Made by a program: the position numbers and the translations under genes. Below are positions 35,452 through 45,168 of a DNA stretch of 64,000 bases, in pieces. The notes below the pieces were generated by a model. It did not search any database and was not told the DNA's origin. It was given only the letters and a program-made list of their open reading frames with translations. Source of the DNA: Longimicrobiaceae bacterium (GTDB lineage: Bacteria; Gemmatimonadota; Gemmatimonadetes; Longimicrobiales; Longimicrobiaceae); assembly GCA_036375715.1 (NCBI GenBank), contig DASVBS010000034.1, positions 1 through 64,000 of the forward strand, given 5' to 3'. The number at the start of each line of letters is the position of its first letter. Positions within the stretch are counted from its first letter, which is position 1.

Positions 35452-36111
35452 ATGGGAAAGCTGGTGGTGGGCACGTTCCTGACGATGGATGGCGTCATGC
35501 AGGCCCCCGGCGGTCCCACCGAGGACCGCGAGGGGGGCTTCCCCCACGGCGGCTGGCTGGTCCCCTACTTCGACGACAAGCTGGTGGAGATCATGAACGA
35601 GTGGACGAGCCGCGCAGGCGGCTTCGTCCTGGGCCGCAAGACCTACGAGATCTTCGCGAATTCCTGGCCGAAGTCCACCAATCCCGAGGACGTTGCCGGT
35701 GCGGCCCTCAACTCGCGGCCGAAGTTCGTCGCCTCCCGCACGCTCGAGCGGCTCGAGTGGAACAATTCCAGGCTCCTCCAGGGCGACGTCGCCGAGGCCG
35801 TGGCGAAGATCAAGGTCGAAGAAGGGGATGAGCTCCAGGTTCATGGCAGCGGAGATCTTCTCCAGACGCTGATCCGTCACGACCTCGTGGACACCTTCCG
35901 GCTCTGGTTCTTCCCGGTAGTGATCGGGGCAGGGAAGCGCCTCTTCGGCCAGGGAGCCATCCCCCGCAGCTTCCAGCTCGTGGAGACGCAGGCGACCACG
36001 ACGGGCGCCGTCCTTCACGTCTATGAGCGGGTGGGAGACCTGCGGTACGGCGAGGTGGAGGTCGGTGAGGAAACGGTGGTTTTCGATGGGGAGACCTCGC
36101 CTGCTGCCTAG
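35452..36111 (+). CDS. Dihydrofolate reductase-family protein (RibD C-terminal type)
   Basis: 219 residues. LVVGTFLTMDGVMQAPGGPT with EDREGGFPHGGW, then FVLGRKTYEIFANSWPK, closely parallels the gene at 17350. DELQVHGSGDLLQTLIRHDL and FRLWFFPVVIGAGKRLFGQG form the cofactor half. It is probably an NADPH-dependent reductase. It and the 17350 protein share the unusual EDREGGF-HGGW block, suggesting a duplication. Confidence 0.88.
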   Translation: MGKLVVGTFLTMDGVMQAPGGPTEDREGGFPHGGWLVPYFDDKLVEIMNEWTSRAGGFVLGRKTYEIFANSWPKSTNPEDVAGAALNSRPKFVASRTLERLEWNNSRLLQGDVAEAVAKIKVEEGDELQVHGSGDLLQTLIRHDLVDTFRLWFFPVVIGAGKRLFGQGAIPRSFQLVETQATTTGAVLHVYERVGDLRYGEVEVGEETVVFDGETSPAA

Positions 36112-36177
36112 GGGACGAGGTAGTGTGCGGGATGAAGGGATTCGGCGGCCATCGTGGGCAACGACACGGAGGTGGCA

Positions 36178-36618
36178 ATGCACCCGGATACACAGCGCTA
36201 CAACGGTACCCAGGGCCCGGTGGAGCGGGCCATCTGCGAGCGGCTGGCGGAACACATCGACCGCCACCTTCCCGAGGCGGAGAACCGGGTCTGGCACGGG
36301 CATCCGGTCTGGTTCCTGGACGGTAACCCGATCGTCGGCTACAGCAAGCTCAAGGATTGCGTCCGACTGCTCTTCTGGAGCGGCCAGTCGTTCCAGGAGG
36401 AGGGCCTGGCGCCCGAAGGGACCTTCAAGGCCGCCGAGATCCGCTACACCGCGCCCGATCAGATCGACCCGGGGAAGCTGGAGCGGTGGCTGGCCGAAGG
36501 CCGCGCGGTCCAGTGGGACTACAAGAACATCGTCCGCCGCAAGGGTCGTCTGGAAAGGCTGGTGCCTGGCGCACCTCCAGGACACGCGGGCGATCATTCG
36601 GCAGCACCGGTGCGATAA
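36178..36618 (+). CDS. DUF1801-family protein
   Basis: 146 residues. ATG 36178 is supported by GGAGG at 36168-36172; a GTG at 36154 is less likely. The core is VERAICERLAEHIDRHLPEA, RVWHGHPVWFLDGNPIVGYS and LLFWSGQSF, the DUF1801/YdhG-like fold (iron- or small-ligand-binding, function unclear). The C-terminal 20 residues are Gly/Pro-rich. A cupin gene follows after 17 bases, and a GNAT gene after that, so the three could form one transcript. Confidence 0.85.
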   Translation: MHPDTQRYNGTQGPVERAICERLAEHIDRHLPEAENRVWHGHPVWFLDGNPIVGYSKLKDCVRLLFWSGQSFQEEGLAPEGTFKAAEIRYTAPDQIDPGKLERWLAEGRAVQWDYKNIVRRKGRLERLVPGAPPGHAGDHSAAPVR

Positions 36619-36635
36619 TCAGGAGGAGCGAGCAG

Positions 36636-37133
36636 ATGAGCGTACAGAAGAACCCGACCACCGGCGTCGTCGTCGAGCTCTTCGGGCCGACGGTGGAGTA
36701 CCTGACGTCACCCGATGACGAGCGCAGCGACTTCTGCGTAATGAAGGGAACGATTCCGCCGGGCGCAGTGGTGCCGCTCCACAGCCACGACGATACCGAG
36801 GACTTCCTCGTCGTGTCCGGGACGGTCGAAGCGCTCAGAAAGGTACGGGACGGCCATGAATGGGTGACGATCAAGACGGGTGATTTCGTCCACATCCCCG
36901 GCAACGCCCCTCACGCCTGGCGCAACAGCTCGGATAAACCGGTGGAGACCCTGATGGTCACCACCAAGAAGATGGGTCGGTTCTTCGCGGAGGTGGGCAG
37001 GTCGGCAGACGAAGCGTCAGGCCCTCCGACCATGGAGGATCTGGAACACTTCGCGGAAGTGTCTGCGAAATACGGGTACTGGAACGCAACCCCGCAGGAG
37101 AACCAGGCGGTCGGTATCCAGGCGAGCTTCTGA
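36636..37133 (+). CDS. Cupin-domain protein
   Basis: 165 residues with AGGAGGAG at 36621-36628. The cupin motif 1 is GAVVPLHSHDDTEDFLVVSG (H-x-H-x-x-x-E) and motif 2 is GDFVHIPGNAPHAWRNSSD (P-G-x-x-H). These form a metal site in a small barrel. The C-terminal 50 residues, TTKKMGRFFAEVGRSAD, are helical. A dioxygenase, isomerase or sensor role is possible; the substrate is unknown. Confidence 0.9.
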   Translation: MSVQKNPTTGVVVELFGPTVEYLTSPDDERSDFCVMKGTIPPGAVVPLHSHDDTEDFLVVSGTVEALRKVRDGHEWVTIKTGDFVHIPGNAPHAWRNSSDKPVETLMVTTKKMGRFFAEVGRSADEASGPPTMEDLEHFAEVSAKYGYWNATPQENQAVGIQASF

Positions 37134-37137
37134 GTCG

Positions 37138-37707
37138 ATGGCGATCGAAGTACGACCCGCCACCGACTTCGACGACGTTCGCCTCATACTGGGCCCCAAG
37201 CGGCCCGATGCGAACGTCTGCTGGTGTCTGAGCTATCGGCTCCCCTCGAAGGAGAACCGCGCGCTCATGGGACCGGCGCGGGGCGAGAAGGTGGCCGCCC
37301 TGATGCAGCGGGGTCCGATCGGCGTACTGGCATACGAGGGCGACGAGGTGGTGGGCTGGGCTGCCGTGGCCCCGCGCGCGGAGACCACCTTCGCCCGCAA
37401 TCGCAAGATTCCCCACGTGGACGACCAGGAGGTGTGGTCGGTCTGGTGCATCCGCGTACGACCGGGGTTTCGACGGAGGGGGATCTCGCATGCCCTGCTC
37501 GAGGGCGCCGTTGAATTCGCCCGCTCCCAGGGGGCGCCGGCGATCGAGGGCTATCCGGTCGACAACCGGGGCGAGAAGGTCGACCTCACCATGGCCTACG
37601 TCGGAACCCGCGCCCTCTTCGAAAAAGCCGGATTCAAGAAGGTCGCCGATACCACCTCCGTGCTCGACGGCTTTCCGCGCGTGCTGATGCGGCGAGATCT
37701 CCGCTGA
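37138..37707 (+). CDS. GNAT-family N-acetyltransferase
   Basis: 189 residues; the start is four bases after the cupin stop codon. The N-terminal part has WCLSYRLPSKENRALMGPAR, then GVLAYEGDEVVGWAAVAPRA and VWSVWCIRVRPGFRRRGISH (acetyl-CoA loop), then LLEGAVEFARSQGAPAIEGY. Close to GNATs with C-L-S-Y motifs found in many soil bacteria. The acceptor is unknown. The gene is part of the DUF1801-cupin-GNAT run. Confidence 0.9.
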   Translation: MAIEVRPATDFDDVRLILGPKRPDANVCWCLSYRLPSKENRALMGPARGEKVAALMQRGPIGVLAYEGDEVVGWAAVAPRAETTFARNRKIPHVDDQEVWSVWCIRVRPGFRRRGISHALLEGAVEFARSQGAPAIEGYPVDNRGEKVDLTMAYVGTRALFEKAGFKKVADTTSVLDGFPRVLMRRDLR

Positions 37708-37745
37708 GACGCAGGCCGTGAGCGAGTCGCGGCTTCCAGGCGCGC

Positions 37746-38192
37746 TCAACCGCCCCTACCGAGCTTCCCGCCCCCCATCTCCTCGCCGCGCCCGAGCCGC
37801 GCTCCGTCCTGCGCCGATCGAGCCAATGCAAGCGTGCCGGCGGCGCAGGTCGCCCCGGCGAGCGCGAAGATCGGGACGAGGATGGGCAGGGCACCGCCCC
37901 CGACCGAGAGACCCAGCGGCAGCGCCAGCGCCAGCCCCCCTGCGGCTCCCCAAGCCGCGAATCGGGGCAGGGACATCTGATCGAAGCTGCGACGCCGCTC
38001 GACGATCCCCAGGATCAGCGAGAAGGTCACTCCGGCCAGGAAGCCGAGCAGCCCGAAGAAGAGCGGGAAGGGGACGTCGGCCGCGCCGAATCCGACGATG
38101 AACAGGAGGATCATGCCGGCTCCGAACCAGGCGGCCGCCCACGTCAAGCCGATCCCGATCGCACCTCGAACCCGCCTCAACCATCGATTCAT
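37746..38192 (-). CDS. Hypothetical membrane protein, about four TM segments
   Basis: 148 residues on the minus strand. Segments: WAAAWFGAGMILLFIVGF, FFGLLGFLAGVTFSLILGIV, AWGAAGGLALALPLGLSVGG and PILVPIFALAGATCAAGTLA. A C-terminal soluble tail follows. No family is recognised beyond frequent occurrence of such proteins in related genomes. A possible operator and -35 box lie upstream at 38250-38280. Confidence 0.65.
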   Translation of the reverse strand: MNRWLRRVRGAIGIGLTWAAAWFGAGMILLFIVGFGAADVPFPLFFGLLGFLAGVTFSLILGIVERRRSFDQMSLPRFAAWGAAGGLALALPLGLSVGGGALPILVPIFALAGATCAAGTLALARSAQDGARLGRGEEMGGGKLGRGG

Positions 38193-38249
38193 CTGTCTCG
38201 CTCTCGATCGAAGTCGCTGCCCTATTCTTCCAGCATCGTCAGGACGTAT

Positions 38250-38280
38250 CTATTTGTCAAGTACTTTACGATGCAAAGTC
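38250..38280 (-). promoter_or_regulatory. Possible promoter with ACTTT-N7-AAAGT inverted repeat
   Basis: ACTTT (38263-38267) and AAAGT (38275-38279) form a small inverted repeat separated by seven bases, next to TTGACA on the minus strand (38255-38260), a good -35 box. The -10 region is weak. It lies 58 bases upstream of the membrane protein start and could bind a regulator. Confidence 0.35.
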
Positions 38281-38315
38281 GGGCCTGGCGAGCACCAGCA
38301 CCCAGCACGAGACCG

Positions 38316-38339
38316 GCCCGTAGGGGCGCCCCTACGGGC
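38316..38339. repeat. Perfect 24-bp palindrome
   Basis: GCCCGTAGGGGC and its exact complement follow each other without a loop. It lies between two minus-strand genes, 51 bases after the stop codon of the mycothiol-type gene on its 3' side. A terminator or a dispersed repeat are both possible. Confidence 0.7.
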
Positions 38340-38390
38340 AGATACCGAGACCTCTTCCTGTTCTACGATCGAATTCAGGGGCCGTCCGCC

Positions 38391-39245
38391 TCACCCTCCG
38401 TCCGCCCCTAACACCATCACGGATCTCGCCGCCAGCAGGGCCTCTGCCAGCGAAGCATCGCCCTCGATCCGCATGCGCTGCCTCGCCTCGTCGGGCGGGA
38501 GGGCGTTGAACAGGAGCCGCCACGCGCAGTCGCCCTCCAGGGTCACGCTCGCGGAGGGCCGGGGCGCGGGGCCGCGCCAGAGGCGCCAACCCGCATCCTC
38601 GCGAACGAGTGACCAGGCACGCACTCCTTCGCCGGTCACCTGGATCACCAGAGCCGTCCCCGCCGGCGCTGGGACCTCACGGTAGGCATGGGGGAGAGCC
38701 CGCAAGGAGAGATCGAGCAGCGGGCCCAGCCATCGCCAGTCCAGCAGCCCCGGCGCGCCGACCGCGTCGCGGATCTGCATCTGATGATGCCAGCGCTCCG
38801 TGTACTCGCGTCCGATGTCCAGCCAGTTCTCTGATTCGGATTCTCCCGCCCAATCGACCGCAAAGAGGGACTGCTCGTGCGGCGGCAACACGGCCATCAG
38901 CTCGCACACGCGCGGTGCGGTGAAGGCGAGCAACTCCGTCAGCAGGCCCGGGCTGAAGCGTCGCGTGACCGCGACCCACTCCGAGTTGAGCCTGTTCAGG
39001 AAGGCCACGAGATCCTCGTAGCTCCGTAGCGGCTCGCCCGGCGTGAGCAGGTGCCTGTCGCGATACGCGGAAAGCTTGCGGAGGTCGCCGTCCAGCAGGT
39101 GGGCGACCACATCCCGAACGCGCCACGCGCGGGCGACCGTGGGACGATCCCAGTCCGCGGGCAGCAGGCGGCCGAGGAGGTCCTCCAGCTCCCGATAGAG
39201 CGGGGGAAAGAGGTCCGCTGTGTAAATCGGGAAGATCGGTTCCAT
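38391..39245 (-). CDS. Maleylpyruvate isomerase N-terminal/DinB-like protein
   Basis: 284 residues on the minus strand. RAWRVRDVVAHLLDGDLRKL is the first helix pair of the mycothiol-dependent isomerase N-terminal fold with a metal-ligand His, and IGREYTERWHHQMQIRDAVG supplies the second and third His. The C-terminal 90 residues form an SCP2-like alpha/beta domain (RLLFNALPPDEARQRMRIEG). Such proteins usually use mycothiol or bacillithiol; whether this organism makes either thiol is not visible here. Confidence 0.85.
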   Translation of the reverse strand: MEPIFPIYTADLFPPLYRELEDLLGRLLPADWDRPTVARAWRVRDVVAHLLDGDLRKLSAYRDRHLLTPGEPLRSYEDLVAFLNRLNSEWVAVTRRFSPGLLTELLAFTAPRVCELMAVLPPHEQSLFAVDWAGESESENWLDIGREYTERWHHQMQIRDAVGAPGLLDWRWLGPLLDLSLRALPHAYREVPAPAGTALVIQVTGEGVRAWSLVREDAGWRLWRGPAPRPSASVTLEGDCAWRLLFNALPPDEARQRMRIEGDASLAEALLAARSVMVLGADGG

Positions 39246-39395
39246 GTCGCAAAGCTAGCGCGAGACCGCCGCCTCTCCAAACCAGCTTCAACAAAGACCT
39301 TCCTTGACACGGAACAATCCACCTTTTAGCGATCGCATCGGCCCCCGATCTGCCGCCAGGCACGCCCAGGCGGCTCCCGACTCCCACTCCCTTCG

Positions 39396-40149
39396 ATGAC
39401 GGCCCCGACCCCTTCCATCCCACCCCGCCCGACTTCCCGGTTCCTGCTTCCGCTGCTCTGCCTCCTCCCGGCCCTGACGCCCTCCCCGGGCAGCGCCCAG
39501 GAAGCCACGGTGCAGGGAATCATCATCGACGCGTCCACGACCCAGCCGCTGCTCGGCGCCAGGCACCCACCGGGCATTCATCGATGGGTCCGAGATCGTC
39601 GTCGCCGAACTTCTCGACGTTTTCCGGCGGGAGATCCGCGTGGCGGTGGCCACCTCCGATTGGCCCTTCCATCCCGATCTATCCGATCTCGAGGTCACCC
39701 TGCCGGGGAGCATGCCGTCCAACGTGGGGAACGGCTACGGGTACGTAGGTGGGGTGGCCGAGTGGACCATCCCGCTGCATCACTGCGAGATGCTCGAGCC
39801 TCGACCGGGAGGCGAGAGCTTCTGCGAGCACCGCTTCGATGCCCGGTCCGCTTCGGTTTCCGGTCGGGTGATCGTGACCCCCTGCAACGATCCCCTCAGC
39901 CTCTGGCCGGTTCGGCTCACGGAGAGGTTCGCCGGGGGTGGGGCAGTGATCCGGACGTGGGGCACCGGCTGGGAGGGAGAGTATCGCTTCGAGGGGATCG
40001 AGCCCGGCTCGGAGCTGGTCCTGGACCTCGGACCGGGAATGCCGGCCTACACCGTTCCACCACTCGCGCCGGGGGAGCATTTCCACGCAGAGGACATGTT
40101 CATGGAGAATCCATTCGTGCCTTGCCGGCCGTCGAGTCCGAACCAATAA
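39396..40149 (+). pseudogene. Secreted protein with carboxypeptidase-regulatory-like start, frameshifted
   Basis: ATG 39396 opens a signal peptide (FLLPLLCLLPALTPSPGSAQ) followed by ATVQGIIIDASTTQPLLGA, the first strands of a carboxypeptidase-regulatory-like domain. Near 39560 the sense continues in the next frame as HRAFIDGSEIVVAELLDVF and RVAVATSDWPFHPDLSDLEV, ending at 40149 with VSGRVIVTPCNDPLSLWPVR-type second-domain text. One base change would join them. Either a recent frameshift, a small deletion or a sequencing error. Confidence 0.55.
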
Positions 40150-40234
40150 TGCATTGCCCTCCTGCTGCCCAACGGCCGCTCCGGGGCGCATCGACTCCGG
40201 TGTCGGGACGTTGCCGCTGAGATCGCAACCCTCC

Positions 40235-40252
40235 GCCCGGCCATCGCCGGGC
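40235..40252 (+). terminator. Short hairpin before the next gene
   Basis: GCCCGG (40235-40240) and CCGGGC (40247-40252) form a six-base stem around CCATCG. It lies between the frameshifted gene and the next start. Weak as a terminator. Confidence 0.35.
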
Positions 40253-40287
40253 TTGCCCGTCCTCCCTAGCCTTCAGGAGGTGGCGCC

Positions 40288-40587
40288 ATGTTGCTCATCC
40301 GCGAGGTGATGTACTGCAAGCCGGGAAAGGTCCGGCCGCTGGTGGAGAAGTTCCTTGCCATGGCCCGCCTCGGCGAGCAGAAGGGGTGGGGTAAGATGCG
40401 GGTGATGACCGACGTCAGTGCGGAACGCTACTGGACGCTGGTCGCGGAGACGGAGGTCCCCAGCCTGCAAGCGTTCATGGAGATGGGGCAGTCCGAGCAG
40501 GAGATGAAGGAGTTCCAGGCGATCATGGAGGGGTACCACGACCTGGTCGATTCCGGCAGGCGAGAGATTTACACCATCGAAGGTTGA
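40288..40587 (+). CDS. Dimeric alpha-beta barrel-type protein (NIPSNAP/ABM-like), hypothetical
   Basis: 99 residues with AGGAGGT upstream. LIREVMYCKPGKVRPLVEKF and WTLVAETEVPSLQAFMEMGQ suggest the ferredoxin-like dimeric alpha-beta barrel fold used by ABM and NIPSNAP proteins, which bind small ligands or haem. No active residues can be assigned. The assignment is by pattern only. It precedes the VOC-CYTH gene by 46 bases. Confidence 0.55.
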   Translation: MLLIREVMYCKPGKVRPLVEKFLAMARLGEQKGWGKMRVMTDVSAERYWTLVAETEVPSLQAFMEMGQSEQEMKEFQAIMEGYHDLVDSGRREIYTIEG

Positions 40588-40633
40588 GAGCCGACCGCAG
40601 GCGACTCGCCACGCTCCCCCGATCTGCAGACGG

Positions 40634-41581
40634 ATGTTTACAGCGCTGTTCCCGATCATCGCCACACCCGATATGGGGCGGGCGCTCCGCTTCTACCGCG
40701 ACGCGCTGGATGGTCGTGTGATCTACGAGTTCTCGGCCCCCGATGGCACGCTCGCGTATGCCGGGCTCGAGATCGGCTCCTCGCATCTGGGGATAGGGCT
40801 GAACCCCGGCGAGGCAGGTGGGGATGGCCGCCCGATCAGCTTGTGGATCTACGCCGAGGATTGCGACGCCGCGGTGGAGCGCCTGCGCGTGGTGGGCACG
40901 CCGATCCTTCAGGAGCCCCGGGACGAGCCCTGGGGGGAGCGGGTCGCCCGGGTGCGCGATCCCGATGGGAACGAGATCGTCATCGGCCAGCAGGGCAGGG
41001 GAGAGCAGGCTCGCCCGAGCCTCGGCGCCAGCCTGATCTCCCCCGAGCCCGAGCGCTACATGCGCCAGGAGTACGAGCGGCGCTTCCTGCTCGCGCCCGG
41101 TGCGTCGTGGCGAGAGCTGGTGGAACCGTACTGCAAGCGCTTCGATGACATCTACCTGCGCCGCACGTACCTGCGGGTGAGGACGCTGACCGACTCGGCC
41201 ACCGGACGGGAGTTCATCAAGCTCACCAAGAAGCTGACCACCCGCTCTCCCTACGTGCAGATGGTGGGCTCCATCCCCCTCTCCCCGATGGAGTACGAGT
41301 TCATCGCCGGGCTCGCCGGGGACCGTCTGATCAAACAGCGCTACTACCACTTCTTCGGCGCGAACGTCTTCTCGATTGACGTGTTCGAGGGAGAGCTCGA
41401 GGGCCTGGTGCTCTGCGAGGTGGAGGCCGGCGACCTGGAGGAGCTGATGCAGATCGAACTACCCGACTACATCGGGAAAGAGGTCACCGAGGACTCGTTC
41501 TTTACCGGAGGGCAGCTGTGCCGCGCCTCCCGTAGCGAGCTCCGCCGCAAACTCGACTCGATCCGGTCGCTCAGGCCATGA
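40634..41581 (+). CDS. VOC domain fused to a CYTH-like domain
   Basis: 315 residues. Residues 2-118 form a complete VOC domain: TALFPIIATPDMGRALRFYR, YAGLEIGSSHLGIGLNPGEA, ISLWIYAEDCDAAVERLRVV and VRDPDGNEIVIG. Residues 144-300 form a CYTH-like domain: Glu146-x-Glu148-x-Arg150 in QEYERRFLL (usual E-x-E-x-K), YLRVRTL, FIKLTKKLTTRS with Lys196/199/200, PMEYEFIAGLAGD, and CEVEAGDL. CYTH enzymes cleave or cyclise triphosphates with Mg. The frame is continuous without a stop, so the fusion is real. Function of the pair is unknown; VOC could sense or process a ligand for the triphosphatase. Confidence 0.8.
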   Translation: MFTALFPIIATPDMGRALRFYRDALDGRVIYEFSAPDGTLAYAGLEIGSSHLGIGLNPGEAGGDGRPISLWIYAEDCDAAVERLRVVGTPILQEPRDEPWGERVARVRDPDGNEIVIGQQGRGEQARPSLGASLISPEPERYMRQEYERRFLLAPGASWRELVEPYCKRFDDIYLRRTYLRVRTLTDSATGREFIKLTKKLTTRSPYVQMVGSIPLSPMEYEFIAGLAGDRLIKQRYYHFFGANVFSIDVFEGELEGLVLCEVEAGDLEELMQIELPDYIGKEVTEDSFFTGGQLCRASRSELRRKLDSIRSLRP

Positions 41582-41645
41582 GGTAGCGTCGTCCCCCCGC
41601 CGATCCGATCGGCACTCTTCCTACCTTTCCTCAGCGAGGTTCACC

Positions 41646-42050
41646 ATGTCTCCCACCCAGCAGGCGATGCTCGACCTCGACGCGGCGATCGCAGAAGCCA
41701 ACGGCCGGTTCATGTCCTCCTTCGCCGCCAGGGATGCGGCTGCCATCGGCAGGCTCTACACTTCCGACGCCCAGGCCCTCCCACCCGGCGGCGATGTCGC
41801 CTATGGTCCAGACGCGATCGCGGCGGTATTTCGCGGCGCAATGGATGCCGGCGTCCGGAAGGTGCAGTTGAAGACGGTGGAGCTGAGCGGTCTTGGCCCG
41901 GTGGCCATCGAGGTCGGACGATACGTCGTGGAAGGGGACGCCGGGGCGGAGATCGATCACGGCAAGTACATCGTGATCTGGAAGCAGGACGGGGGCGCCT
42001 GGAAGATCCATCGGGATTTCTGGAACAGCAGCGAGCCACCCTCAGCCTAG
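41646..42050 (+). CDS. NTF2-like protein (DUF4440/SgcJ type)
   Basis: 134 residues. AAIAEANGRFMSSFAARDAA and IGRLYTSDAQALPPGGDVAY, then VQLKTVELSGLGPVAIEVGR and YIVIWKQDGGAWKIHRDFWN, form the cone-shaped NTF2 barrel; the closing block matches SgcJ/EcaC-like members. Probably a small-ligand-binding protein or isomerase. Another NTF2-like remnant lies at 14052. Confidence 0.85.
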   Translation: MSPTQQAMLDLDAAIAEANGRFMSSFAARDAAAIGRLYTSDAQALPPGGDVAYGPDAIAAVFRGAMDAGVRKVQLKTVELSGLGPVAIEVGRYVVEGDAGAEIDHGKYIVIWKQDGGAWKIHRDFWNSSEPPSA

Positions 42051-42100
42051 CCGTCGAGGCCCTTCGGTCACACCCGGCGGATCTATTGTGTGGATCTATT

Positions 42101-42283
42101 ATGAAGAAGCGAGGCATCAACGCCGAATGGCACCGTACCCACCGGATGCCGAAGACCCCCACGTTGGAGCAGCGCCTCGAGTGGCACCTGGAGCACCAGG
42201 AGAAGTGCGCCTGTCGAGAGCTGCCGGAATCCATCCGGAAGGCGCTCGCGCAACGTAGCGCCAGCCGCGAGCAAGGTGCTTGA
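42101..42283 (+). CDS. Conserved small protein of unknown function
   Basis: 60 residues from ATG 42101. RGINAEWHRTHRMPKTPTLE and QRLEWHLEHQEKCACRELPE are a conserved pattern I have seen in many bacterial genomes, with His and Cys spaced as in a metal-binding helix (H-L-E-H-x-x-x-C-A-C). It is soluble and basic. Function unknown. Confidence 0.7.
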   Translation: MKKRGINAEWHRTHRMPKTPTLEQRLEWHLEHQEKCACRELPESIRKALAQRSASREQGA

Positions 42284-42288
42284 GGCGA

Positions 42289-42322
42289 AGCGGGAGGGGA
42301 TCTCTGGCGATCTCCTCCCGCT
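42289..42322. terminator. Bidirectional hairpin between convergent genes
   Basis: A 14-base arm (AGCGGGAGGGGATC, 42289-42302) pairs with 42309-42322 with one G-T pair, around TCTGGC. Plus- and minus-strand genes converge on it. CTCTTCTCT follows on the plus strand. Confidence 0.7.
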
Positions 42323-42331
42323 GCCTCTTCT

Positions 42332-43039
42332 CTAGCGCGGCCCTTCCTGGAAGATCTCGTTCAAGCGTCGCGCGAACCTCGGCCCGGTGCCGGTATCCTC
42401 GTGCATGAAGTAGACGAAGGCATCGGACCACTCCTGCGCCGCGATCCGCTCGAGCCAATCCTGCAGGTCCGCGTCCTCGTAGGCGTTCGCTCGTAGCCGC
42501 AGGTACCCCCATTCCGCTGTTCTCACCAGGGGCGTCGTTCCCTGCGCATCATCCTCCACACAGAGCGGACGGCGATGCTCGCGCAGGAGAGCGAACAGCT
42601 CGTCGTCGAACCAGGAAGGGTGGCGAAACCCGAACGCGACGCGTGCATCTTCCGGCACCTGCTCCAGAAAGGCCTCGAGACGGGGGAGGTCCTTCTTGAA
42701 GTTGGGAGGGAGCTGGAAGAGCACAGGACCCAGCCGTCCATTCAGGGACGCCGTGACCTCGAAGAACCGCTTGGTGGGTTCCTCCGCCTCGCGCAGCCGC
42801 TTGCGATGGGTGATCACCTGCGGCGCCTTGAAGGCGAAGGTGAACTCCTCGGGCACGGTCTCGGCCCACTGGCGCAGGGTCTCTTCGGTGGGAAGTCGAT
42901 AGAAGGTGCTGTTGATCTCGACCGTGGAGAAGTGCTGCGCATAGAAGCTCAGCATGCCGGAAGCGGGGAGATCCGGCGGGTAGAAAGGGCCCTTCCACTC
43001 CTTGTAGGCGTACCCGCTCGTTCCTGCGTGCAGCCGCAT
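42332..43039 (-). CDS. DUF72-family protein
   Basis: 235 residues on the minus strand. The N-terminus HAGTSGYAYKEWKGPFYPPD and EINSTFYRLPTEETLRQWAE are the signature of DUF72 TIM-barrel proteins; FAFKAPQVITHRKRLREAEE and VLFQLPPNFKKDLPRLEAFL follow. DUF72 proteins are cytosolic, metal-site TIM barrels of unsettled activity. The next minus-strand gene ends 100 bases upstream. Confidence 0.92.
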   Translation of the reverse strand: MRLHAGTSGYAYKEWKGPFYPPDLPASGMLSFYAQHFSTVEINSTFYRLPTEETLRQWAETVPEEFTFAFKAPQVITHRKRLREAEEPTKRFFEVTASLNGRLGPVLFQLPPNFKKDLPRLEAFLEQVPEDARVAFGFRHPSWFDDELFALLREHRRPLCVEDDAQGTTPLVRTAEWGYLRLRANAYEDADLQDWLERIAAQEWSDAFVYFMHEDTGTGPRFARRLNEIFQEGPR

Positions 43040-43139
43040 GTCTGCCCCTGAGTATGGGAGTCCGACCCGCGCTACGATCGGGTAGACATCTAGCGACGTC
43101 GTCCCCGAGCAGCAAGCTCGCGCTACTCCCCCGTCGTCA

Positions 43140-43895
43140 TCACTGCGGCGGTCTCCGGCCCACGATCACCGGCTGAAAGAACCGTCCGTCGACCCGGTGG
43201 ACGTCCTCGAATCCAGACTCCCGCAGCAGCTGCATCAACCGGTCGATAGACACCGCGTAGTACATGGTGCGCATGACCCGGGTGCGGCATTCGGCGCCGC
43301 CGCCCCGATCCTCCACGAAGTACATCGCCAGGTCGTACAGGTCGCCCCTGAACTCCCATACCTGCAGCAGCACGTACCGCACTCCGTCCTCGGTGCGGAC
43401 CCCGTAGGGCACGAGCTTCCTTCCCTCGCGCTCCGTGGTGGCGTAGTCGCGCACCGAGATCAGGCAGATCCCGCCGGGACTGAGGCAGCCCAGGAACTGG
43501 CGGAAAGCGCGCAGGATCTCCGCATCGGTCAGCAGGTGCGGGACCGAGTTGTCGGCCGAGAGCACGATGTCGAAGCCGCCTCCATGCCGCTCGAATGCGG
43601 CCCGCATGTCCGCCACGGACAGATCGATCGAAAGCCCACGGGCCGCCGCCTCCCGCCGCGCTCGCTCGACGGCACCGCGCGAGAGGTCGGAAGCGGTGAC
43701 CAGGTAGCCGAGCTCCGCAAGGCCGAGGCTCTGCGTGCCGATCCCGCAGGAGACGTCCAGCAGACGGCGGGCGTGACCACCCGCTTCCTCACGGATGATC
43801 TCGTCCAGGGCACGCGCCTGGCGTGCGATGCTGGTCTCCCAGTGACCGTAGATCAGGTGATATAGTGGGGCCAGCTCGTCGTAGAAGGTGTCCAC
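43140..43895 (-). CDS. Class I SAM-dependent methyltransferase (glycine N-methyltransferase-like)
   Basis: 251 residues on the minus strand. FYDELAPLYHLIYGHWETSI opens; SAM motif I is LLDVSCGIGTQSLGLA (about 45-60), then VTASDLSRGAVERAR and VLSADNSVPHLL; GGICLISVRDYATTEREGRK is strand 5. The pattern resembles glycine or sarcosine methyltransferases. Its start overlaps the reverse-strand leader of the next gene, a divergent pair. Confidence 0.87.
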   Translation of the reverse strand: MDTFYDELAPLYHLIYGHWETSIARQARALDEIIREEAGGHARRLLDVSCGIGTQSLGLAELGYLVTASDLSRGAVERARREAAARGLSIDLSVADMRAAFERHGGGFDIVLSADNSVPHLLTDAEILRAFRQFLGCLSPGGICLISVRDYATTEREGRKLVPYGVRTEDGVRYVLLQVWEFRGDLYDLAMYFVEDRGGGAECRTRVMRTMYYAVSIDRLMQLLRESGFEDVHRVDGRFFQPVIVGRRPPQ

Positions 43896-43980
43896 GGGAC
43901 TCTCAGAGTTCGACTACCTGGCTACTCGCGCGGGGGCGAACGGCCCTCACGCGATCCCGAACGAACCACTGGGATGGACG

Positions 43981-44532
43981 TTGAACCAGCGGAGTGATGA
44001 GGTTGGGCCCCTGGAGATCTGGACCATCGGCCATTCTACCCGGTCCATGGAGGACTTCCTCGCGTTCCTGGAAGAGAACGGGATCGAGGCGGTCGCCGAT
44101 GTGCGCCGGTTTCCTGGCTCGCGGGCCTACCCCCACTTCAACGCCGAGCCCCTGGCGCAGAGCCTGGCCGCGCGCGGAATCGAGTACCTCCCCTTCGGCG
44201 ATCTCGGCGGACGGCGAAGGCCCGATCCCGGGTCGACCAATACCGTCTGGCGCCATCCCGCCTTTCGCGCCTACGCCGACTTCATGGAGACGCCCGAATT
44301 CCGAGCCGGCCTGACTCGCCTGCTGGCGGCCGCGCGAACGCGTCGGACGGCGATCATGTGTTCGGAGGCGGTGTGGTGGAGGTGTCACCGCGCGCTCATC
44401 GCGGATGCGCTCAAGGCCGGCGGCGCCCGCGTCCTGCACATCATGGACGTCGGCAAGGTGGTCGAGCACCCGTACACGGCGGCGGCGACCGTAGTCGACG
44501 GAAAGTTGCGCTACGGAGCCGCCCCGGCATGA
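43981..44532 (+). CDS. DUF488-family protein
   Basis: 183 residues with the TTG start at 43981; a GTG at 43888 would overlap the divergent methyltransferase and add a non-conserved leader. LEIWTIGHSTRSMEDFLAFL opens DUF488; VADVRRFPGSRAYPHFNAEP, YLPFGDLGGRRRPDPGS and IMCSEAVWWRCHRALIADAL with Cys-His follow. DUF488 proteins are small, cytosolic and possibly RNA- or metal-binding; function unknown. Confidence 0.9.
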   Translation: MNQRSDEVGPLEIWTIGHSTRSMEDFLAFLEENGIEAVADVRRFPGSRAYPHFNAEPLAQSLAARGIEYLPFGDLGGRRRPDPGSTNTVWRHPAFRAYADFMETPEFRAGLTRLLAAARTRRTAIMCSEAVWWRCHRALIADALKAGGARVLHIMDVGKVVEHPYTAAATVVDGKLRYGAAPA

Positions 44533-44583
44533 TACCCGCATGCCCGCCGCGCAGGCGCCGCGTCAATCCTCGCAGAGTTCCGC

Positions 44584-45168
44584 ATGGACATTGCATTCGC
44601 GCCGGGCGCCACTCGAATTCACCAGCGCTTGATCATGGATGCACAGCGCCCCGCCGCAGTCAATGAGGCGAATGCCAGCGAAGGGGGTTGCGGCGCGCCG
44701 CCCGAGCCGTCGCGCTCCAACCAGGCCCCCGCCGGACTGACCCGCGAGTATCACACCGATCGCATCAGCGTCCTCTGGTTCGCGGAGCGCTGCATTCACA
44801 GCGGTGAGTGCATCCGCGCGCTCCCCCGCGTCTTCAATCCACGGCGCCGGCCGTGGGTCGATCTCACGCGCGCGGAGGCGGACGCGATCGCTGAAGCCGT
44901 GCTGCTCTGCCCGACCGGGGCGCTTCACTACGTCAGGCACGACGGCGGCGCTCAGGAGCCGGAGCCCGGGGCGGTGCAGGTTCGCGCGGTGCGCGATGGC
45001 CCTTACCTCGTGCAGGGCAGACTCGAAATCCACGGTGCCGACGGCGAGCTGATCCGCAGCGACACCCGCATGGCTCTCTGCCGCTGCGGCTGCTCCGCCC
45101 AAATGCCCTTCTGCGACAACACGCACCGCTCGATCGGCTTTCGGGAGCCGGGCCGGCGCGAATCGTGA
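44584..45168 (+). CDS. Fer4_19 plus CDGSH iron-sulfur protein
   Basis: 194 residues. The middle part VLWFAERCIHSGECIRALPR with DAIAEAVLLCPTGALHYVR is a YjdI/Fer4_19-type domain with ferredoxin-like Cys spacing (C-x5-C ... C-P-T-G-A-L), and the C-terminal CRCGCSAQMPFCDNTHRSIG is a CDGSH domain (C-x-C-x8-C-D-x-x-H form) binding a 2Fe-2S cluster. A 50-residue N-terminal leader is polar and disordered-looking; ATG 44635 is an alternative start. It probably moves electrons or senses redox state in the cytosol. Confidence 0.85.
   Translation: MDIAFAPGATRIHQRLIMDAQRPAAVNEANASEGGCGAPPEPSRSNQAPAGLTREYHTDRISVLWFAERCIHSGECIRALPRVFNPRRRPWVDLTRAEADAIAEAVLLCPTGALHYVRHDGGAQEPEPGAVQVRAVRDGPYLVQGRLEIHGADGELIRSDTRMALCRCGCSAQMPFCDNTHRSIGFREPGRRES

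Follow-up and report, generated by a model that had tools for sequence, protein, structure and literature searches.

Enzymes of the CYTH/triphosphate tunnel metalloenzyme (TTM) group are widespread, but little is known of what they do in the cell (PMC8233210). Domain fusions provide clues to their partners; if conserved, one with VOC would add a new clue. In YgiF-type CYTH-CHAD and AtTTM1-type kinase-CYTH proteins the CYTH domain is likewise joined to another domain, although the partners differ from the one described here. NeuTTM (NE1496, PDB 3TYP/2FBL), an inorganic triphosphatase from Nitrosomonas europaea, and SaTTM (PDB 7NSF) from Sulfolobus acidocaldarius share the fold of our CYTH half and are single-domain proteins, NeuTTM having no VOC domain. 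The fold of our VOC half is shared by the drug-binding proteins TioX, TnmS1/S3 and mitomycin-resistance MRD, which, unlike the protein studied here, are also single-domain. Bleomycin N-acetyltransferase (PDB 2ZW4; Foldseek match 1.5e-7) sets a precedent by combining an unrelated enzyme with a VOC-like domain, but the enzyme there is an acetyltransferase rather than a CYTH protein and the VOC part is C-terminal.

We analysed a 64,000-nucleotide stretch of DNA, referred to as the window, in which one gene encodes a VOC domain followed by a CYTH domain. The fusion is real and lineage-specific, and it brings together two known kinds of domain in a combination that no other genome searched contains.

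The fused reading frame and its junction

The fusion gene is laid out as follows.

40634-41581, + strand: VOC-CYTH fusion reading frame, 315 amino acids plus stop, uninterrupted; third-position GC 0.88 overall
40634-40990, + strand: VOC domain, residues 1-119, predicted BRP/TioX-like fold, glyoxalase metal ligands absent
40991-41044, + strand: linker, residues 120-137, with no start codon; low model confidence at residues 122-140
41045-41578, + strand: predicted CYTH/TTM domain, residues 138-315

The frame opens with ATG, closes with TGA and contains no internal stop, as the original prediction of a single uninterrupted 315-residue frame had it. Third-position GC in the linker (0.89) is like that of the VOC (0.85) and CYTH (0.90) parts, and within residues 96-150 an in-frame ATG, GTG or TTG occurs at only two places: V107 (GTG), which lies within the VOC domain, and M143 (ATG). 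The stand-alone relatives of the CYTH half have the motif P-x-Y-A-x-x-E-x-E-R-R in common, which in the window protein reads P-E-R-Y-M-R-Q-E-Y-E-R-R, and in the fused frame its conserved P-x-Y-A residues lie 5' of M143, directly after the linker. The continuous third-position GC, the lack of a usable start and the position of this motif together support translation of the fused frame across the VOC-CYTH join, as judged from the sequence.

An assembly join or frame error linking two unrelated genes might be suspected, given that the draft genome is in 87 contigs and the fusion was met only once, but we consider it highly improbable: in addition to the junction features just described, the site lies deep within a 175,867-base contig, and in base composition the gene, at the 89.7th percentile of tetranucleotide distance, is no extreme outlier within the window.

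Occurrence of the VOC-CYTH order

VOC and CYTH halves in one frame were found nowhere else in the genome samples, plasmids, phages and viral contigs searched; the genome samples overlap and cover a small part of known genomes, and absence from them is not proof. The one candidate, in genome G473 (match to query residues 89-293, open frame 345 amino acids), was dismissed, its upstream part being non-coding-like and not VOC. The viral contigs yielded one VOC relative, and two further VOC scans added no contigs. The literature searched likewise contained no VOC-CYTH architecture, in agreement with the original prediction, in which none was known to have been described. The original prediction had also set against the fusion the combination of a domain order found nowhere else with evidence of an assembly join; the order was indeed found nowhere else among the genomes and plasmids searched, and the join appears unlikely.

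Predicted folds of the two halves

The two halves were modelled with separate alignments, that of the VOC half having three rows. The VOC assignment, placed earlier at residues 2-118, was recovered by Pfam PF00903 at residues 9-116 with an E value of 2e-18, well above cut-off. The model of this half has a mean pLDDT of 79.9 and contains the paired beta-alpha-beta-beta-beta modules; the nearest solved folds in Foldseek are TioX (top match, 3.3e-9), a Sphaerobacter VOC protein and TnmS1, with TnmS3 and mitomycin-binding MRD further near matches. In an alignment to metal-bound GloA2 (4MTQ), the His/Glu/His/Glu ligands of glyoxalase I are absent from the VOC half, the aligned residues being F6, G54, S69 and V116; we take these four positions to be those of the GloA2 metal ligands (the glyoxalase I site). 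By this alignment a glyoxalase-type metal site is absent, with none of the four ligands kept. The missing ligands and the drug-binding VOC proteins among the nearest folds suggest that the modelled domain would serve in binding or dimerisation. Bleomycin-resistance-type proteins bind drugs as dimers and without a metal.

The CYTH half matched nothing in Pfam or NCBIfam, and PF01928 did not rise above its cut-off, so that of the two Pfam families originally proposed for checking only PF00903 was detected. Searched alone with phmmer, the CYTH half reached NeuTTM, its best match by sequence, at 1e-4, and a profile built from a seven-sequence subfamily alignment (A2) reached the same protein at 3.8e-16. 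AlphaFold2 modelled this half with good confidence (most blocks at pLDDT 74-91) as eight strands (residues 143 to 265) followed by a C-terminal helix. Eight antiparallel strands characterise the tunnel fold, which here spans residues ~138-310. Foldseek ranked NeuTTM first and SaTTM next. VIA-align gave Z 13.4 for SaTTM, the highest structural score (rmsd 2.6 over 146 residues), and Z 13.3 for NeuTTM (rmsd 3.2 over 136 residues). The CYTH-like domain that had been proposed at residues 144-300 is thus upheld by both the subfamily profile and the structure prediction, and on these grounds the C-terminal half is a divergent TTM homologue with a predicted CYTH fold. In the full-length model the domain arrangement is not trustworthy, and residues 1-69 have pLDDT <50.

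Both structural neighbours share active-site features with the window protein. NeuTTM has the ExE pairs and basic residues in common with it (28% identity over the structural alignment) but shows the classical ExExK and a strand-5 EYE; SaTTM shares the DxY motif and the two-metal residue set (19% identity) but has ExExK where the window protein has ExExR.

Catalytic residues and likely activity of the CYTH half

In characterised TTMs, the ExE pairs act on metals, the RxR, Lys and KxR residues on phosphates, and DxY in water placement (PMC8233210, PMC4641920). The corresponding motifs of the window protein, two of them with roles assigned from PMC8233210 as indicated, are listed here.

41069-41083, + strand: E146-Y-E148-R-R150, ExExK/R strand-1 motif
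41147-41155, + strand: D172-x-Y174, DxY water-placing motif (PMC8233210)
41168-41182, + strand: Y179-L-R181-V-R183, YxRxR substrate-binding strand (PMC8233210)
41417-41425, + strand: E262-V-E264, strand-8 metal-binding ExE

The CYTH half contains the strand-1 ExE (E146, E148), the RxR (R181/R183), the strand-4 lysine (K196), the KxR (K234/R236) and the strand-8 ExE (E262/E264). E146, E148, D172, Y174, R181, R183, K196, K234, R236, D249 and E262 are invariant in all seven aligned subfamily members, and E264 is kept in most. The positions first assigned to E146-Y-E148-R-R150, K196/K199/K200 and C261-E262-V263-E264 proved correct, and the retention of the tunnel acidic and lysine residues, which had been put forward as a check, fits a CYTH domain that is probably active.

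Two departures from the canonical site are evident. The lysine of ExExK is conservatively replaced by R150, with Arg in 7/7 members of A2, and several of the phylum's ordinary TTM relatives (e.g. L010, L030) have Arg there as well. In the sequence alignment the strand-5 (beta-5) glutamate is lost (Ser213), and no subfamily row has Glu there; the equivalent acidic-patch residue of AtTTM3 is Glu-90, whose Ala mutant is less active (PMC4641920). With both changes, the activity of the CYTH half may be lowered or altered. That it is catalytically altered outright, or binds triphosphate or polyphosphate rather than acting as a triphosphatase, is a reading we regard as unlikely: the two substitutions extend across the subfamily and the AtTTM3 mutant is in its favour, but both ExE pairs, RxR and KxR persist in the window protein and, for the most part, across a divergent subfamily, and pure binding would not obviously need the kept metal and phosphate residues.

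Class IV adenylyl cyclases are distinguished by HFxxxxExExK, a small residue in place of the first RxR arginine and a strand-8 ExA (PMC8233210). A cyclase with a VOC regulator might be proposed from the stand-alone relatives that adjoin a cNMP-binding gene in two Rhizobium genomes, yet none of the three published marks occurs in the window protein: no HF precedes ExExK/R (ERYMRQEYERR), the first arginine is kept (R181), and so is the second strand-8 glutamate (E264). The structural score to AC-IV is Z 10.6 vs 13.4 to SaTTM. We therefore rejected the cyclase reading, to which we attach very little probability. With the cyclase motifs absent, a Mg-dependent triphosphatase is the best guess for the CYTH half. 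The aromatic residue of the thiamine triphosphatase W/YxRxR motif is present in Y179-L-R-V-R, but Y179 is private to the window protein, the other subfamily members having no Tyr or Trp there, and the score to human ThTPase is only Z 8.4.

Subfamily membership and origin of the CYTH half

Together with stand-alone proteins the CYTH half forms a clade apart from ordinary TTMs (support 100/100), a distinct subfamily with the motif KYAxxExERRFL. The nearest relatives are up to 39% identical and stand-alone. Members were found on plasmids of Rhizobium, Ciceribacter, Streptomyces, Embleya and Nocardioides and in Pseudomonadota genomes, several of the plasmid copies near transposase genes; the subfamily is uncharacterised and, unlike the window protein, all of its other members found stand alone with no VOC domain. 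One contig search gave only Rhizobium-type loci, its patterns leaning to Rhizobium.

In the search of 154 genomes of the window's order, the subfamily was absent from the other 153, and the window scored 5e-71 vs 4e-16 at best for ordinary TTMs; phylum and class genome samples gave the same picture. Since no other searched genome of the order carries it, we infer from its distribution that the CYTH half likely arrived horizontally.

PF01928 misses the window protein, and the other scanned members of the subfamily score at most 15.5 bits vs a cut-off of 23.2, whereas the ordinary TTM relatives L006 and L008 pass. The ten-cluster CYTH census was built from PF01928 (PMC8233210), and because that profile misses every member tested, the census probably lacks this subfamily. 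The subfamily is apparently undescribed and invisible to Pfam, and would be a more durable by-product of this analysis than the fusion itself.

Several observations accompany the subfamily. The phage family phrog_6660, of unknown function, matches 6/7 subfamily members of A2 (window 41054-41578), and on the strength of this match phages may carry this type of TTM; no CYTH relative was found in the viral contigs or phages searched. At two Rhizobium loci (L057 3457-4513, L060 3455-4510) a cNMP-binding-domain gene and an ABC transporter gene immediately precede the stand-alone gene of the subfamily. In three Pseudomonadota genomes it adjoins riboflavin or flavin/molybdopterin genes, namely lumazine synthase, RibBA and MoCF_biosynth/FLAD1-like (L118 1064-1483, L119 2022-3329, L116 1971-2849). 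The genome that contains the window also encodes a CYTH-PPK1 fusion (L146 1-2073, - strand, G000:C25), in which a CYTH domain (PF01928) is N-terminal to polyphosphate kinase 1 (PP_kinase_N, PP_kinase).

Possible role of the coupling

The best explanation that we can offer is a two-domain protein consisting of a horizontally acquired triphosphatase TTM and a tuning VOC module, a reading that as a whole we hold to be evenly balanced. The TTM half would have come from the often plasmid-borne stand-alone subfamily, its fusion with a VOC gene taking place in this lineage. Its substrates would be short linear triphosphates, whether PPPi, NTP or an organic triphosphate, hydrolysed through a tunnel mechanism with two metals. 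The VOC half, metal-free and BRP-like, would most likely dimerise or bind a small ligand and thereby position or tune the triphosphatase, which is the weakest step of the proposal and a doubtful one. In the original prediction the VOC domain could bind the product of the CYTH enzyme or a signal ligand. Against the explanation as a whole stand the replacement of the ExExK lysine by Arg and of the strand-5 glutamate by Ser213, the lack of a trustworthy domain arrangement in the full-length model, and the absence of a second genome with the fusion, which leaves no conservation favouring coupling. With the order absent from every other genome searched, the case for a selected, conserved function is weakened.

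A neutral join, in which adjacent genes fused through stop loss or a small deletion and the halves work uncoupled, is accordingly a serious rival, and a substantial possibility if short of an even chance. The fusion is a singleton in all genome searches, each half stands alone elsewhere, and the 18-residue linker has low model confidence. Both halves nevertheless keep their domain integrity and high third-position GC, with no decay seen, which counts somewhat against a neutral origin; intact halves do not themselves argue for coupling. Going further than the tuned triphosphatase, a new ligand-gated enzyme can be envisaged in which the metal-free VOC sensor would bind a small molecule and switch the attached subfamily TTM, but we view this as improbable.

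Genomic neighbourhood

One further reading frame lies immediately upstream.

40288-40587, + strand: 99-amino-acid reading frame, ending 46 bases before the fusion start

The 46-base spacing agrees with the original prediction, but the NIPSNAP-like identity given to this frame is unsupported: nothing in Pfam rose above cut-off, and NCBIfam, PHROGs and the PDB sequences yielded no match. No search backed NIPSNAP as a third partner. Near the fusion gene we found no terminator-like site and one promoter-like site with a weak consensus match. Further upstream, two reading frames on the + strand (39396-40220 and 39640-40149) overlap out of frame with each other; the first begins like a signal peptide, and the two could be one frameshifted gene for a secreted protein. 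In the region around the fusion (window 35452-45165), small domains of binding or modifying type follow one another: RibD_C, DUF1801, cupin, GNAT, MDMPI_N, DUF4440, DUF72, methyltransferase, DUF488 and Fer4_19-CDGSH.
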